This document shows positions 55,997-63,033 of a stretch of 64,000 bases of DNA, piece after piece. The stretch is from IMG/VR virus record IMGVR_UViG_3300027749_000082, positions 1 through 64,000 of that record; one strand, 5' to 3'. A program made the position numbers and the translations under genes. The notes under the pieces are model-generated. The model was not told the origin of the DNA. It did not search any database and saw only the letters and a program-made list of their open reading frames with translations. Position 1 is the stretch's first letter. Each line of letters opens with the position of its first letter. Source of the stretch: a virus.

Positions 55997-56380
55997 ATGG
56001 TAACGTTTAGTGACTACTTACTCGAATACACCAAGAATAAAGAAAAATCTTTATTCTTCGGTATAGCAAAAATGAAACATGGCAACAACGGTAAGGACTG
56101 GAATAGAGCTCATGAGAGAAAACACATTAATACTGTTACTAAAGAGTACAACCATAAGCACCCTATTATAAACAGTATATGCCAAGGTAAAGCAGATAAT
56201 GTACCTATTACAGGTGTAAATCTTAATAATATATTAAAGCTTTATAGTATGATATTTGAACCAGGTCTTAAGACTATAGGTAACTCAGATGTTGAAATAG
56301 AGATGTTTGAGGATGAAGAAGGCAGACAACACGGTAGATTGAGAAATAAGAAAAAGAAAACTTTACCGTATGGCTTGTAA
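55997..56380 (+). CDS. Small basic unknown protein
   Basis: 127 residues, ATG at 55997. Basic, with the first 20 residues helical (TFSDYLLEYTKNKE) and the C-terminal tail RLRNKKKKTLPYGL rich in Lys. The segment HERKHINTVTKEYNHKHPI has several His. Not recognised. It overlaps the gp14-like gene by 11 nt and shares its late transcript, so it may be a virion or neck-assembly partner. Confidence 0.7.
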   Translation: MVTFSDYLLEYTKNKEKSLFFGIAKMKHGNNGKDWNRAHERKHINTVTKEYNHKHPIINSICQGKADNVPITGVNLNNILKLYSMIFEPGLKTIGNSDVEIEMFEDEEGRQHGRLRNKKKKTLPYGL

Positions 56381-57257
56381 CCCTAATCAAATTAACTGTA
56401 ATAGTAATAGTCCTGGAATGGATTGGTATAACGCTGCTGCAGAATCACCAGAGTGTAGTCAATTCTTTGATCCATCTAACTTTCAAGCTGAACAGGTAAT
56501 ATATGATGCTGCTTATCAGGATATGATCAATAGCTTTGGTATACCTATAGATTACTATATTAATACATTTAATTTATCAGCTGCAGATACACTTTATGGT
56601 GAGCAACCTACAGCTATATTTTACGGTCCCGTTTCTTTACAAATGTATGTAGAGCTTACTGAACCTGCAGTTAATCTTTCTAAATTTGGTTTTGCTTCTG
56701 ATGATGAGATGACCGGATTTCTACATATACAAACGTTTATGGATGCAGTATCTGGAAAACGGTTCTATATACGTACATCAACAGGTAATATACTATCAAT
56801 TAACGAATATTTCTCACAAAATAAAAGAGCGGTAGGTATAAATGATACACTAATGAGTCAGTTCACAACTAATGGTCAAGTACTTGAACCAAAGTCAGGT
56901 GATCTTATACAGTTATCACCTTTGGGTTGTGATAGACCAAATGGTCGTGGTGCTAAGATATTTGAAGTGACAGAAAGAGTAGATCAAGATGTTGCTTCTT
57001 TAAATCCTCTTATGGGACACTATGTTTATAGATTAAGAGCTAAACGTTACGAATATTCATTCGAACCTGGCGCTCCACAAGAACAACAGAATCAACAGGT
57101 ATTTGAGAATGCGTTCTCTGGTAAAAAATCTTCTACTATAACAGGTCAAGTATCATCAGCTCCTAAATCGTATCCAGGCGATGTAGATACGGAGTCACAG
57201 ACAAAAGTGTTTGATATGACTGCTAATGAGACAGATATATACGGTACGTATTATTAA
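56370..57257 (+). CDS. gp14: Neck protein, T4 gp14-like (copy 1)
   Basis: 295 residues, ATG at 56370. Gp14-like order: FQAEQVIYDAAYQDMI, IDYYINTF, LYGEQPTAIFY, VELTEPAVNLSKFGFASDDEMTGFLHIQTF, and PKSGDLIQLSPLG followed by AKIFEVTER and a Tyr-rich C-terminal region. In T4, PKEGDLIYFP occurs at the same place in gp14, which with gp13 forms the neck that joins head and tail. A close paralogue lies at 60061. Gene ends in a TATTATTAA shared with the convergent fibre gene (4-nt overlap). Confidence 0.72.
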   Translation: MACNPNQINCNSNSPGMDWYNAAAESPECSQFFDPSNFQAEQVIYDAAYQDMINSFGIPIDYYINTFNLSAADTLYGEQPTAIFYGPVSLQMYVELTEPAVNLSKFGFASDDEMTGFLHIQTFMDAVSGKRFYIRTSTGNILSINEYFSQNKRAVGINDTLMSQFTTNGQVLEPKSGDLIQLSPLGCDRPNGRGAKIFEVTERVDQDVASLNPLMGHYVYRLRAKRYEYSFEPGAPQEQQNQQVFENAFSGKKSSTITGQVSSAPKSYPGDVDTESQTKVFDMTANETDIYGTYY

Positions 57258-59221
57258 TTGTATAAATTACCATATACATCTAAATCTGCTTGTGTAATTA
57301 GATTTAATGGTATATATGTACCAGCTATTGTGTTTATAGCGGTTTGTATAGCATCTGAGTAATATGATATTGATGGACCACCATATGTATACCAAAATGT
57401 CATTAATAATACAGGCTTTTTATTTATAAAGCATATATTAGGATGTCCACTATCCCCAGCTCGTGCATTCTTAAATGATAATACAGCACCTTCATTTGAG
57501 GAAAATACAGTATTGTTATAAGTCCAAGTAGGATCTGCTGTCCAAAAAGATGTACTATACGAACCTGGGGTAATATCTTGATCTTGCGAGATCCTATAAC
57601 CATGAATCCACGGCGGTATTTTTGTAGCTGAATTAGCACAAATTAATGAGTTAGGTAGTATATAAAACCCCGGGAAAGCTGAAACAGGAAGTGCAGGACT
57701 AAGTTCGTATAATGCTATATCACCACTATTAGCTATAAGTGTTTTACTTATAATATTTGTATTATATATTTTAGAGGGATTATTAAAATCTCTAAAATAT
57801 ACAGCCCGTGGTAGTGGTGTGCCGGGAGAACCTGGATCTAAGTGATTTGCTGTAATAGCAAATCTCGGATGTATTATATTTGTAGCGTAATCATTTCCTG
57901 CAAATCCGTTATAATTATTTAGCACCGATAAAGGCCACGTGTACATACTATTTGTATTCATACCAAAAGCAGTATTTAATGCTCCATAATAAGAGTTTTG
58001 AAATGTACCATCACTAAGTGGTATATAAAAAGAATAGGGTTGTCTTTTACCTGAAAGAGGATCTGTAACAGTTTTATATTGTTCCATTAAAAGCGTGTTA
58101 GACTTTGTGGGTATAATATCATATAGAGGAATTGAGGTAATATTATATGCAGATAAGAGTTTAAACACTATTTCTGCAGGAAAAGGATTATTAGTAAACT
58201 TCCAAGTTGTAGGGTGACATACTCCACTTGAATTTATATTCGAGGTTAAAACATTTACCTGTGTTGTACTTAATGCATTAATAAAATTAAAATTACTGAC
58301 AGTAGAACCACTTAGATTTGTTAATATTGTTGATTTATTAAGATTAGTAAAATCTATATAAGAGGTGCTTAATGGTATATTTGATGAATTAAAATAATAA
58401 TAGTCGCCAACTGTTTGGTTAGCAGAAATTGTAGGATATATATTAGTTGAGGAAAGAGATAAAGTTGTTATTTTAAGACCTGTTAGTGTATTAGATGTTA
58501 GAGTTAAATTAAATGTTGTTAATACTGATACATTCTGATTAAATGTAAAATTTAAACTAAGATAAGGGCATCTATTATAAGGATATCGCGCATTACTACT
58601 ACTCGTGGGTATATTAAAAGTTGTATTAAATTGCTTGATAGGGTCACTTATGTTAAAATATATAACATTAGCTTGTGTTGAGTAATTTGTCCAGCTAGTA
58701 TCTAGATTATATGTAATATAGCAATTTACGGATGTTAATAGAGGATTATTAGCAAATGTAATGCTTGGCCGAAAATAAGTAGTATCACGGGGAAAACCTT
58801 TAAGATAATACCCAACACCCCAAAACATGTAACTACTTAAAGATATATCTGTTAAAACATTATTACCTGTAACAGCAATATTATTTGTCCCTAAAAAAGG
58901 CATCAAAATAGTATAATTACTATTTTGTATAGAATCATAGTATGTACTAACTACAGGTACAATTGTGGTATCTGGAAAACTAAAATTAATAGTTTTAAAT
59001 TGACTATCTCTAATTTTAATTATTTTAAGTGCATCCTTATAGTTGTAGAATCTTTCTACTACATTCCAATTACCAGATAACCCTCCACCCATATTAATAT
59101 ATGTGGAACAAGATTGACCTAGATCGATCGCCCAAAAATCCGATCGTAGATAGTTAAGTGTATACGTATTTGGTATAATAACGTTAGATAAATAAAAGGA
59201 AGTAGTTAAAAAATTATACAT
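57254..59221 (-). CDS. Fibre-cluster protein with a chymotrypsin-fold serine protease domain
   Basis: 655 residues from the ATG at 59221, which begins MYNFLTTSF and starts 5 nt after the upstream stop; a reading from 59263 would overlap the upstream gene. Residues 1-380 are Ser/Thr/Asn/Tyr-rich beta, fibre-like. The C-terminal 220 residues show the trypsin/chymotrypsin triad: His460 in FAITANHL (as TAAHC), Asp501 in GDIALYELS (as DIALL), Ser591 in AGDSGHP (as GDSGGP). Spacings 41 and 90 are close to the 45 and 93 of chymotrypsin. Probably a virion-borne protease. No signal peptide. Activity is not proven. Confidence 0.72.
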   Translation of the reverse strand: MYNFLTTSFYLSNVIIPNTYTLNYLRSDFWAIDLGQSCSTYINMGGGLSGNWNVVERFYNYKDALKIIKIRDSQFKTINFSFPDTTIVPVVSTYYDSIQNSNYTILMPFLGTNNIAVTGNNVLTDISLSSYMFWGVGYYLKGFPRDTTYFRPSITFANNPLLTSVNCYITYNLDTSWTNYSTQANVIYFNISDPIKQFNTTFNIPTSSSNARYPYNRCPYLSLNFTFNQNVSVLTTFNLTLTSNTLTGLKITTLSLSSTNIYPTISANQTVGDYYYFNSSNIPLSTSYIDFTNLNKSTILTNLSGSTVSNFNFINALSTTQVNVLTSNINSSGVCHPTTWKFTNNPFPAEIVFKLLSAYNITSIPLYDIIPTKSNTLLMEQYKTVTDPLSGKRQPYSFYIPLSDGTFQNSYYGALNTAFGMNTNSMYTWPLSVLNNYNGFAGNDYATNIIHPRFAITANHLDPGSPGTPLPRAVYFRDFNNPSKIYNTNIISKTLIANSGDIALYELSPALPVSAFPGFYILPNSLICANSATKIPPWIHGYRISQDQDITPGSYSTSFWTADPTWTYNNTVFSSNEGAVLSFKNARAGDSGHPNICFINKKPVLLMTFWYTYGGPSISYYSDAIQTAINTIAGTYIPLNLITQADLDVYGNLYN

Positions 59222-59226
59222 AATTA

Positions 59227-59541
59227 TTAAAAGGGTGTACCGTACGTTCTGCCGTAATACCATGTATTAAAGGCTGTATCTACCGGTACGAATTCAAAAG
59301 CGCTTAATAGAGGTACTACAGATTCATTTACACCTATAATAGTACCAGTTCCACCAGCAAAGGTTATTTCCTGTAAAATTTGTTCTGCGTAGACTATCGA
59401 TACTACAGGTCTATTAGGAGTATTACCTAGGTAGTTATCTTTACCAGAAGCTGCTATATAGACTGCAGTTCTACTAGCAAATGTCCTAGCGTCAGGACCA
59501 TCCGCATCAATCGTAGCATTTCGTACACCGTATGATATCAT
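59227..59541 (-). CDS. Small fibre-cluster protein
   Basis: 104 residues, ATG at 59541, with a 4-nt overlap upstream. Sequence is Ala/Thr/Gly-rich with SYGVRNATIDADGPDARTF at the start and YYGRTYGTPF at the end, beta-like. No family recognised. It sits between the protease-fibre and the 59538 protein in the minus cluster that faces the first gp14-like gene; a virion role is inferred. Confidence 0.6.
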   Translation of the reverse strand: MISYGVRNATIDADGPDARTFASRTAVYIAASGKDNYLGNTPNRPVVSIVYAEQILQEITFAGGTGTIIGVNESVVPLLSAFEFVPVDTAFNTWYYGRTYGTPF

Positions 59542-59984
59542 TGAAGTAATCCTGTTAAGAGAAACACACTATCACCTACTCTACCAATAGATGCTACTGC
59601 ACCAACACCTGCTGTTGTATATAAGGAGTTATACGAAACTAGTCTAGCATTATAACCTGAAGATAGATTAATTGTTATTGTACCTGTGCTTAGTTGTGCT
59701 ACTGTTGTATTTGCACCAACTGTATTTAAAGCGCTATCAATCCATGCAGTTATATTCTGTGTACCACTATATATTAACATCTTTGCGTTATAGTCTACAT
59801 GAGATATTATAAAACTATTGGAAGCGCTTATTGTGTTTAGATATGTACCATTTAAATTAACAAGAAAGCTAGAAAGCGTATTGACTGTTGCACGCTTTGT
59901 TTCTACTTCGTTATCCACTATAAGATAATCAGTTCCAAGTACTGTAGTAGCAGTATTAAGTTGTGATATTAATTGGTCATCCAT
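59538..59984 (-). CDS. Small fibre-cluster protein, first gene of the cluster
   Basis: 149 residues from the ATG at 59984; an in-frame ATG at 60008 is rejected because the perfect TATAAATA box lies between the two, 5 nt before 59984. Begins MDDQLISQLNTATTVLGTDYLIVDN, then beta-repeat sequence (STGTITINLSSGYNARLVSYN). No family recognised. N-terminal segment DYLIVDNEVETKRATVNTL recalls the attachment segments of tail-fibre proteins. Confidence 0.65.
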   Translation of the reverse strand: MDDQLISQLNTATTVLGTDYLIVDNEVETKRATVNTLSSFLVNLNGTYLNTISASNSFIISHVDYNAKMLIYSGTQNITAWIDSALNTVGANTTVAQLSTGTITINLSSGYNARLVSYNSLYTTAGVGAVASIGRVGDSVFLLTGLLQ

Positions 59985-59989
59985 ACATA

Positions 59990-59997
59990 TATTTATA
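59990..59997 (-). promoter_or_regulatory. Late-type promoter box TATAAATA
   Basis: Perfect minus-strand box 5 nt before the ATG at 59984; fixes the start of the 59984-57254 cluster. Confidence 0.8.
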
Positions 59998-60060
59998 ATA
60001 ACACACACGTAGTGGTGTAGCTTTAAGCTAATATCATTGATACTATTAAATAATATAGTA

Positions 60061-60930
60061 ATGGCTTGTAATACTACTAGACAAAACTGCCCACCGAGTA
60101 GCGTATTTTCTGCTATGGCATCTCCCGGTTGTAGTCAGTTCGCAAACCCTGCTAATTTCCAAGCAGAGCAATTTGTTTATAGTGCGGCGTTTAGAGATTC
60201 TATAAACAATTTTGGTATACCTGTAGACTACTATATTAATACATATAATATTAATACAGCTGATAACTTATACGGTGAACAACCTACAGCTATATTTTAT
60301 GGTCCTATATCATTAATGATGTATGTTGAATTATCTGAAAACTCTATTAATCTATCTAAATTTGGTTTTGCTTCAGATGATGAAATGACAGGCTTTTTAC
60401 ATATACAAACATTTACTAATGCAATATGCGGTAAAGAGTATTTTGTTCAAACATCAACTGGCGAACTACTTACTGTAGAAGAATATTCAGATACATTTAA
60501 CTTAGTAGTATCAGATAAAACACTACTTCAACCTTATTTAAATAGTAATCAAGCAGTTGAACCTAAATCAGGTGATCTTATACAGTTATCACCTTTAGGC
60601 TGCGATAGACCAAATGGAAGAGGTGCTAAAATATTTGAAGTAACAGAGAGAATGGATCAAGATGTATCATCTATTAACCCCATGCTTGGTCATTATGTAT
60701 ATAGACTAAGAGCTAAACGATATGAATCTTCATTCGAACCAGGAGCTCCTAAAGAACCACAAAATCAACAAGTATTTGAAAATGCTTTTTCTGGTAAGGT
60801 ATCTTCTACTATACCTGGAGAAGTGCCATCTAATCCTAAATCGTATCCAGGAGATATTAATACCGAGTCACAGACAAAAGTGTTTGATATGACTGCTAAT
60901 GAAACAGATATATACGGAACGTATTATTAA
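60061..60930 (+). CDS. gp14: Neck protein, T4 gp14-like (copy 2)
   Basis: 289 residues from the ATG at 60061 (an ATG at 60037 is in frame but adds an unmatched hydrophobic stretch; copy 1 also starts MACN). It is clearly paralogous to the 56370 gene along its whole length, with long runs of identity, for instance SKFGFASDDEMTGFLHIQTF, PKSGDLIQLSPLGCDRPNGRG and the last 20 residues. The N-terminal 35 and the middle (about 125-160) are the main divergent parts. Its end overlaps the convergent fibre gene at 60927 by 4 nt, just as in copy 1. Confidence 0.72.
   Translation: MACNTTRQNCPPSSVFSAMASPGCSQFANPANFQAEQFVYSAAFRDSINNFGIPVDYYINTYNINTADNLYGEQPTAIFYGPISLMMYVELSENSINLSKFGFASDDEMTGFLHIQTFTNAICGKEYFVQTSTGELLTVEEYSDTFNLVVSDKTLLQPYLNSNQAVEPKSGDLIQLSPLGCDRPNGRGAKIFEVTERMDQDVSSINPMLGHYVYRLRAKRYESSFEPGAPKEPQNQQVFENAFSGKVSSTIPGEVPSNPKSYPGDINTESQTKVFDMTANETDIYGTYY
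60865..60902 (+). repeat. 38-nt exact repeat of gp14 copy 1 (57192-57229)
   Basis: The 3' parts of the two gp14-like genes share a 38-nt identical run (57192-57229 and 60865-60902) and are nearly identical around it. This is higher than the identity in the rest of the genes. Confidence 0.85.
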
Positions 60931-61613
60931 AATAAAGGAGCTGGTGCTACCTGTTTAGCCGTTATATATGATCCACTGGTTATTGTAACAGGAATAATTC
61001 CGGGGGATACTGTACTATGAAATAATGTTATAACTGTAGGACTATAAACTGTTAATAACAATTTATAAGAAGTTGGACGATTAAACATATTATATAGCCC
61101 TTGACTAGGATTACCTACTATAAATGTAGATAGTGTATTATTTATATTTGACATATATACCCCTGTACCCGGAGTATTAACGGGTATACCCGAACTGTAT
61201 GGTAAATACCCCATACCTAATGAAGTAACAGGGTTAGAAGCAGATAAAGTAAAATCTATAGTCCATATACCGGTGCTGGATAAGGTAGAAGTATTATTAC
61301 CAGTTGTATAAGGATAAATTAATGCAGTTACAAAATAAACACCAGAAGATAATGTTAATGTTATACCTGATGGAACATAGGCAGAGGTAGCAAAAACAGT
61401 AGTAGAATCCGATGTTAATATACTGGTATATGTGTTACCATATCTCATATCCCCATAACCTCTATTAATTATATCACTACTTAAAGTAGTGATTTGGCTT
61501 GCAGCAATAAACTGATTATTAATAGTTAAATTACCTGTTAAGTTTATATTACTTAAAGTAGGAGATGCTGTAGAATCTGTATTGGATAAATCTGATAAAG
61601 CATGAAGAGGCAT
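60927..61613 (-). CDS. Short fibre protein, MPLHALSDLSN family (member 1)
   Basis: 228 residues, ATG at 61613. N-terminal MPLHALSDLSNTDSTASPT is shared with the two genes upstream; the N-terminal 75 residues end in a helical or coiled segment before a variable beta domain from about 75 (TSAYVPSGITLTLSSGVYFVTALIY). A short fibre with common attachment end and variable tip is a sensible reading. A TATAAAAT sequence (61620-61627) lies 6 nt upstream. Converges with gp14 copy 2. Confidence 0.7.
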   Translation of the reverse strand: MPLHALSDLSNTDSTASPTLSNINLTGNLTINNQFIAASQITTLSSDIINRGYGDMRYGNTYTSILTSDSTTVFATSAYVPSGITLTLSSGVYFVTALIYPYTTGNNTSTLSSTGIWTIDFTLSASNPVTSLGMGYLPYSSGIPVNTPGTGVYMSNINNTLSTFIVGNPSQGLYNMFNRPTSYKLLLTVYSPTVITLFHSTVSPGIIPVTITSGSYITAKQVAPAPLF

Positions 61614-61619
61614 ATATTT

Positions 61620-61627
61620 ATTTTATA
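61620..61627 (-). promoter_or_regulatory. Late-type promoter box variant TATAAAAT
   Basis: Minus-strand variant 6 nt before the ATG at 61613. An AATAAATA also overlaps here but stands only 1 nt from the ATG, which is out of line with the other genes. Confidence 0.3.
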
Positions 61628-61628
61628 T

Positions 61629-62300
61629 TTAAAGTGTTGGTCTTGCTATTATAAATGAACCTCTATGACAAATTAGTAAAGCAGGTGGTGATGTGGTAGA
61701 AGTAGGGGTAGCAGTAATAAAAATTCTTGTATTATTATTATAAATTTTTAAAGAATAATTAGCTATATAATATTTAGCACCAGTATCACCAGCAGAATAA
61801 GCAAATGTACCTTGCGATACGGCACTAAGAGATATTCGCATACTTTTTTGACTAGATTGTACAGTAGAATAAGCTTGTATTGTACCGAGTGTACTGGGTA
61901 AGGGTGATATAAAACTTCCCATAATATCTATAGTATCCGTAGCAGATAAACCATGTCCATAAGAAGGTGCTCCTCCAGATAAATTCTGAAAAAATATTTT
62001 TGATTCGACAGTATATGTACCTGCATTTAGAATCAAAGAAATACCCATCTCGGTATATGTAAGGGGTGTAGTATATAAATTACCCACAATACTATCAGCA
62101 GATAATATACTCATATATATATTACCATATCTTTTATCAGCAGTAGCTTTAGTAACTACACTACTACTTAAAGTTAATACTTGATTAGGAGCATATATTT
62201 GGTTATATACTGATAAATTATTAGTTATAGTCAACCCACTAATAGTAGGAGATGATGTAGAATCCACATTAGATAAATCTGATAAAGCATGAAGAGGCAT
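61629..62300 (-). CDS. Short fibre protein, MPLHALSDLSN family (member 2)
   Basis: 223 residues, ATG at 62300. The first 40 residues are identical to member 3 (MPLHALSDLSNVDSTSSPTI and on), coming from a 121-nt DNA repeat. The variable domain after residue 60 is beta-rich (GISLILNAGTYTVESKIFF, IMGSFISPLPS). Late-type AATAAAAT lies 6 nt upstream. Confidence 0.72.
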   Translation of the reverse strand: MPLHALSDLSNVDSTSSPTISGLTITNNLSVYNQIYAPNQVLTLSSSVVTKATADKRYGNIYMSILSADSIVGNLYTTPLTYTEMGISLILNAGTYTVESKIFFQNLSGGAPSYGHGLSATDTIDIMGSFISPLPSTLGTIQAYSTVQSSQKSMRISLSAVSQGTFAYSAGDTGAKYYIANYSLKIYNNNTRIFITATPTSTTSPPALLICHRGSFIIARPTL

Positions 62301-62305
62301 ATATT
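62185..62305 (-). repeat. 121-nt direct repeat, copy A
   Basis: Covers the start codon, the first 40 codons and 5 nt of leader of member 2. Nearly identical to 62918-63038. A shorter diverged copy covers 61558-61619 at the start of member 1. Confidence 0.85.
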
Positions 62306-62319
62306 TATTTTATTTATTA

Positions 62320-63033
62320 TTAACCAACTTGTGTGGCTATCATCCATGATCCCTTGTACATTGTTACAGGATTACCTACAGTTAATGTATTTTGAAAATA
62401 CAAAATATAAAACCTACAAGGTGTATTTACAAATATAGTTGTTTGATGTAAGAACATTCTACCCCCATTTAATGCTGCTGTATCAGAAAATGTGTTACCA
62501 TTAACTCCTGATATTGGAGTTAAAGAAGTTGTATTTATATTTATAATAGTTCCACCTAAAGCTGCCGTAGCCCATGTACTTCCTATAGGTGCTGTAGTAG
62601 GCTGTTTAATACCTGTTACAATAATATTAGCATCAGTAACACTAGTTGTACAATTAACATTAGTTGTAATAATACTCATTTTTAATCCAGTAGCTGTAGT
62701 AGAATTTAAATTATTACCGTAACATAGTGAATCTATTATGTATACTCCGGTAGAAAGGGCTAAGTATAAGGGACAAGCAGATAATATGTCAGCATACCCC
62801 ATAGCATTATTATCAATAGGAGGTCCGTCAGCAGATAATATATTTACAAACATATTACCATACCTTTTATCTGCTGCATACTGAGTCATTACACTACTAC
62901 TAAGTGTAGCTGTCTGGTTAGGAGCATATATTTGATTATATACAGATAAATTATTAGTTATAGTCAACCCACTAATAGTAGGAGATGATGTAGAATCCAC
63001 ATTAGATAAATCTGATAAAGCATGAAGAGGCAT
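62320..63033 (-). CDS. Short fibre protein, MPLHALSDLSN family (member 3)
   Basis: 237 residues, ATG at 63033, 3 nt after the stop of the large fibre gene. Same N-terminal module as members 1 and 2, then a different beta domain (CPLYLALSTGVYIIDSLCYG, TKMSIITTNVNC-like, FLHQTTIFVNTPCRFYILYF). Three tandem paralogues with fixed N-terminus and variable C-terminus suggest alternative receptor-binding tips. Confidence 0.72.
   Translation of the reverse strand: MPLHALSDLSNVDSTSSPTISGLTITNNLSVYNQIYAPNQTATLSSSVMTQYAADKRYGNMFVNILSADGPPIDNNAMGYADILSACPLYLALSTGVYIIDSLCYGNNLNSTTATGLKMSIITTNVNCTTSVTDANIIVTGIKQPTTAPIGSTWATAALGGTIININTTSLTPISGVNGNTFSDTAALNGGRMFLHQTTIFVNTPCRFYILYFQNTLTVGNPVTMYKGSWMIATQVG

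Follow-up and report, generated by a model that had tools for sequence, protein, structure and literature searches.

Introduction

To our knowledge, the enzymes that give phages access to the host cell act almost exclusively on sugars and peptidoglycan. Tailspike depolymerases are virion-borne glycan-degrading enzymes (PMC6966330, PMC5380687). The logic proposed for them, that a fibre- or tail-borne enzyme removes a host barrier, is shared by the 655-residue phage protein described here, but they are glycanases or lyases whereas this protein is a predicted peptidase. A trypsin-like protease is reported in a T4-like phage, Sinorhizobium phage phiM9 (NC_028676 gp099; PMC10783043 and GenBank record), but it is a stand-alone, HtrA-like Trypsin_2 protein whose gene neighbours the major head gene and is not in a fibre cluster, and when considered as a relative of the family below it gave no match (E 0.17). 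Peptidase S74, the endosialidase chaperone, resembles our protein in being a C-terminal peptidase-like domain on fibre proteins. The fold and catalytic residues of S74 differ from those of the trypsin fold; the 655-residue protein has no S74 match in Pfam, and its relatives carry the domain N-terminally or alone, unlike the always C-terminal S74. Nor does it match the T4 gp21 prohead protease (S77) in Pfam or PHROGs.

Among the closest described proteins are chymotrypsin and trypsin (MEROPS clan PA, family S1; PF00089), with which the protein shares the order His-Asp-Ser, the DIAL and GDSGxP motifs and a predicted barrel. The trypsin fold is long known, but a peptidase that would replace a glycan depolymerase as virion enzyme appears undescribed in the libraries and open-licence papers searched, and we saw no trypsin-fold domain on phage fibre-cluster proteins reported in those papers.

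Results

The window, the whole stretch of 64,000 nucleotides analysed here, comprises bases 1-64000 of an 82,117-base IMG/VR virus record. The source phage is contractile-tailed and T4-like, with a large terminase, tail sheath, tail tube, baseplate wedge and Hc2/gp14-type neck all recognised. The gene for the 655-residue protein belongs to a fibre cluster on the minus strand, and its end abuts a neck gene on the plus strand. The features are:

57254..59221, minus strand, whole protein of 655 residues, ATG at 59221 (open reading frame and translation; syntenic orthologues L234, L235, L236 and L238)
58202..59221, minus strand, N-terminal region, residues 1-340, presumed fibre or attachment part (Thr/Asn/Ser 38%)
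57257..58099, minus strand, C-terminal peptidase region, residues 375-655, predicted trypsin-fold domain (AlphaFold, Foldseek, profile match to trypsins)
57842..57844, minus strand, codon of predicted catalytic His460 (HPRFAITANHL), His in 87 of 87 alignment rows and invariant in the orthologues
57719..57721, minus strand, codon of predicted catalytic Asp501 (GDIALYELSPALP), Asp in 86 of 87 rows and invariant in the orthologues
57449..57451, minus strand, codon of predicted nucleophile Ser591 within GDSGHP, with Gly589 and Asp590 of the oxyanion hole, Ser in 87 of 87 rows
59227..59541, minus strand, small 104-residue open reading frame directly upstream of the protease gene, function unassigned
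59538..60008, minus strand, fibre- or adaptor-like protein of 156 residues with the N-terminus ISQL...YLIVDN...TLSS, heading the cluster, with a weak match to a tail-fibre PHROG (0.007)
56370..57257, plus strand, neck or head-closure Hc2 (T4 gp14-like) gene bordering the cassette (phrog_679 1.1e-11; PF11649 2.9e-4, below cut-off)

The open reading frame extends over 57254-59263 on the minus strand (669 codons), and a start at the alternative ATG, at 59263, would lengthen the protein by 14 residues to 669. The start at 59221 giving 655 residues is plausible but not proven, and no clear ribosome-binding site was seen for it. Counted from this ATG, the triad positions given in a first-pass annotation of the DNA are exact, His460, Asp501 and Ser591 following in order with spacings of 41 and 90 residues, against 45 and 93 in chymotrypsin. 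Residues 1-340 have neither a family match nor a recognised fibre domain in Pfam or PHROGs.

The surroundings of the gene show further traits of their own. Two paralogous gp14-like neck or head-closure genes, 56370-57257 and 60037-60930 (both plus strand), lie either side of the minus-strand protease operon; their proteins have clear full-length similarity, strongest at the C-terminal end, and the relatives L004, L005, L234 and L235 have one copy. At 60927-63033 (minus strand) three adjacent fibre-like genes have the N-terminus MPLHALSDLSNxDSTxSPT in common but differ beyond it, as though tips had been swapped on one attachment module.

Queried alone, the protein matches nothing in Pfam, PHROGs or among PDB sequences and nothing meaningful in INPHARED; it does not reach the Pfam PF00089 gathering cut-off, and PF00089 has no match anywhere in the 82-kb record. 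The first relatives were found with a degenerate DNA pattern, GDSGxP and the following strand, chosen partly after the general look of such phage proteins; masking, HMM, PDB profile and fold then served as independent checks on these relatives. They form a consistent group of phage proteins that share the motifs PRHxxxAxH, D[IL]xxxxLdsdlP and GDSGNPxFxxxNxxLVLL. Against an HMM of 24 relatives from which the window protein was left out, the 655-residue protein scores E=3.6e-14, and the same HMM matches ordinary S1 trypsins at E 1e-4 to 1e-3. Because the relatives had been recruited by the Ser motif, this motif was masked, leaving 16.4 bits (E=2.4e-4, Z=1000); masking both motifs lowers the score to 4.3 bits and abolishes the signal. 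Of 200 shuffled sequences with the Ser motif left intact, the best scored 39.4 bits, compared with 50.7 for the real sequence. That a low-complexity fibre protein resembles a protease motif by chance is exceedingly improbable: its Thr/Asn/Ser-rich composition and the single-sequence database searches without a match would suit such a resemblance, but masking, shuffling, orthologues, family profile and fold search all speak contrary to it and refute it in practice. Another DNA pattern, DIAL...GDSG, returned ordinary trypsins in phage or prophage contigs, which are not close relatives of the protein and were used as outgroups. Ordinary stand-alone S1 trypsins were seen on the viral contigs of L060, L063, L074, L095 and L096, several of them near-identical across contigs.

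Four true orthologues (L234, L235, L236 and L238) were obtained with the pattern GDSGHP. They have the same neck gene on one side and the fibre side of the cluster on the other, on contigs that share the terminase and neighbouring genes; the Hc2 neck gene adjoins the protease at all four orthologous loci, and an adaptor-type gene is present at L234 and L235, upstream of the protease. Homologues of the adaptor-like protein also adjoin the neck gene in L004-L007. Identity to the 655-residue protein is 32-41% over the aligned length, 25-29% in the N-terminal part and 40-42% in the protease, and the triad, Gly589, Asp590 and Pro594 are invariant. The window clade sits on a long branch of the family tree (3.38 changes per site) and has lost residues conserved elsewhere in the family (R424N, E584K, D545S, R488T); because the clade is so divergent and these other residues are lost, retention of the catalytic set is meaningful. 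For the C-terminal part dN/dS between L234 and L235 is 0.23, and the protease part is under purifying selection. A dead protease whose fold survives as a surface for receptor binding would be in keeping with the divergent, long-branch clade and its several lost residues, but His, Asp, Ser, Gly589, Asp590 and Pro594 are kept despite this divergence, and with dN/dS at about 0.2 we regard such a relic as very unlikely.

The flanking DNA of L234 and L004 is 92-93% identical in its outer parts and 88% identical towards the adaptor, and the protease is absent from L004; near-identical flanks around a locus without the protease indicate that the variable fibre cassette includes this gene as an optional module. 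A back-translated search for close relatives returned only the identical copy L001, and of 57 loci in which the neck gene is related, only this window-identical copy has a protease next to it. The relatives' fibre cluster (L234 6709-8414, L004 4555-6263, L235 2640-4042) also holds a glycosyltransferase-like gene and a gene of phrog_27463 that we take, from its N-terminus, to be sulfotransferase-like. At the same cluster position L005 (4396-6609, minus strand) has a fibre protein of FPALATVGTSFxPTTMxALSSM repeats, a different tip type.

Pattern scans place the protein in a family, as yet without a name, that comprises about 100 distinct proteins, mostly from environmental phages. Most of the 87 rows of the family alignment were recruited by motifs without a catalytic residue (DQEEKALV and YVRNxxCW), and the collection was scanned with a 7-row subset, a first 25-row alignment being too diverse. 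His and Ser are present in 87 of 87 rows and Asp in all but one (L108); Asp590 and Pro594 are likewise found in every row, Gly589 in 85 and Gly592 in 84. The triad read in the first-pass annotation is kept in the four syntenic orthologues and in 86 family members, with the one exception at Asp. That annotation had also proposed a profile search against the S1/PA peptidases, which succeeds for the family and fails for the window protein alone in Pfam: the family profile matches trypsin 5dk1 best in the PDB (E 8e-6), as well as factor IX, elastase and chymotrypsin, with 306 PDB sequences matched up to E 10. PF00089 is weakly matched by 17 of 88 family members (best E 8e-5). The family is absent from Pfam, and no model of it was found in PHROGs or NCBIfam.

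Structure prediction depends on this alignment. The single-sequence AlphaFold model of the window protein has no confident fold (mean pLDDT 31), whereas with the 87-row alignment the peptidase domain is predicted as a trypsin-fold barrel with pTM 0.78, mean pLDDT 74.9 and a core above 90. The well-predicted core begins at about residue 445; residues 393-424 are uncertain, and the first 50 residues of the model and some loops are poor. In Foldseek the model matches plasmin, elastase and chymotrypsin in the PDB at E 8e-9 (about 1e-8) with TM-scores of 0.5-0.6, only about 0.5 because of these poorly predicted first 50 residues and loops, and its best match among viral models is an uncharacterised protein of an uncultured phage (2.7e-13). 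The chymotrypsin fold foreseen in the first-pass annotation is in agreement with both results. The model places His460 after a strand, Asp501 before one and Ser591 in the loop that leads into another, an arrangement shared by the triad residues of chymotrypsin. The local sequences are AITANHLDPGS at His460, IANSGDIALYE at Asp501, comparable with the chymotrypsin Asp motif DITLLKLSTPA, and ARAGDSGHPNI at Ser591. The differences from S1 are equally clear: identity is about 15%, below curated cut-offs; the residue after GDSG is His in our protein (Asn or Ser in relatives) and Gly in S1; and the protein has no recognised IVGG-type zymogen N-terminus and is fused to a phage fibre-cluster protein. 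We consider the predicted chymotrypsin fold and catalytic residues well supported.

Among sequenced phages the family is scarce. INPHARED (50,697 phage records) contains one member only, UOF78081.1, a hypothetical protein of Podoviridae sp. isolate ct3Et533 (MW202510.1), a podovirus; it was matched via the family member L105, not by the 655-residue protein, and its gene sits between a structural protein/rhamnogalacturonan lyase gene and an FN3 gene. Elsewhere the neighbours of family members are mixed, including Mtd_N/collagen fibres, minor tail proteins and virion structural proteins, but also portal, lysins and helicases. Fifteen family loci come from bacterial genome assemblies, mostly Verrucomicrobia, Kiritimatiellae, Lentisphaerae and Planctomycetes MAGs. 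One, L227, from a cultured cyanobacterial assembly (Anabaena lutea FACHB-196 contig20), has phage major head, tail-fibre and tape-measure genes with the family protease and is a possible experimental entry point. Other assembly loci appear cellular or secreted, some carrying secretion-sorting, cadherin or TSP3 surface domains: L226 has a weak type IX sorting tail and neighbours with such a tail, and L230 has cadherin and peptidoglycan-binding domains. Two phages (L151 6584-10404 and L192 3790-7607) each have two family protease genes with one 434-residue gene between them.

The position of the domain varies. In complete family members it is C-terminal in 55, N-terminal in 16, internal in four and stand-alone in at least five (a 90-residue fragment not counted), a spread that speaks against a fibre chaperone acting purely by self-cleavage. 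Self-processing was among the roles suggested in the first-pass annotation. On this reading the domain would cut itself or a neighbouring fibre protein during assembly, for maturation or chaperone release in the manner of the S74 endosialidase chaperone, with no role towards the host. The C-terminal place of the domain in the window clade and in those 55 members, where cleaved fibre chaperones sit, is compatible with it, as is the conserved Lys/Arg-containing junction that joins the domain to the N-terminal part (LSGKRQP or LSGKVQP). The stand-alone and N-terminal versions are not accounted for by a C-terminal chaperone that cleaves in cis, however, and the lack of an S74 or S77 match and the secreted relatives in cellular assemblies also count against it, so that self-processing is disfavoured as the sole role and we judge this explanation unlikely. 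The stand-alone members, and the endolysins among the neighbours, could instead point to a non-structural protease freed at lysis that degrades outside protein such as debris, inhibitors or matrix. The gene belongs to a fibre operon, however, the 340-residue N-terminal part is common to the orthologues, and a recognised secretion domain was not found in the 655-residue protein; we think a released enzyme decidedly unlikely.

Discussion

We regard it as fairly probable that the 655-residue protein is a fibre-cluster protein with an active, virion- or fibre-borne serine protease domain that cuts host-surface or surrounding protein. Its place in the fibre cluster, the optional swapping reminiscent of host-range genes and the surface or secreted relatives all argue for the virion-borne reading; catalytic activity, virion location and an extracellular, host-side substrate are what we infer from them and from the preserved catalytic set. 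In such a mechanism the last roughly 260 residues would act as a chymotrypsin-fold serine protease through His460, Asp501 and Ser591, and the N-terminal half would most likely tie the protein to the virion, either directly or via the upstream adaptor. The protease would then be displayed on the particle surface and may cut a host-surface or extracellular-matrix protein during adsorption, serving as the protein counterpart of a glycan-cutting tailspike.

The domain is conserved, modular and catalytically intact-looking, and it occurs in fibre clusters and late regions while being nearly absent from sequenced isolates. The existence of a large unnamed family across uncultured phages suggests that some phages attack the protein barriers of their hosts, as others attack sugar coats. 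Tentatively, since we put the chances slightly short of even, the family may consist of widespread virion-displayed serine proteases of uncultured, mainly aquatic phages, opening protein barriers (protein coats, surface adhesins or matrix, as glycan depolymerases open capsules) and spreading as swappable modules of fibre cassettes, with hosts perhaps of the Planctomycetes-Verrucomicrobia type. If this is true, protein barriers would be a general target in phage adsorption, the family would be a new source of proteases, and many phage proteins now annotated as 'hypothetical' would gain a function.
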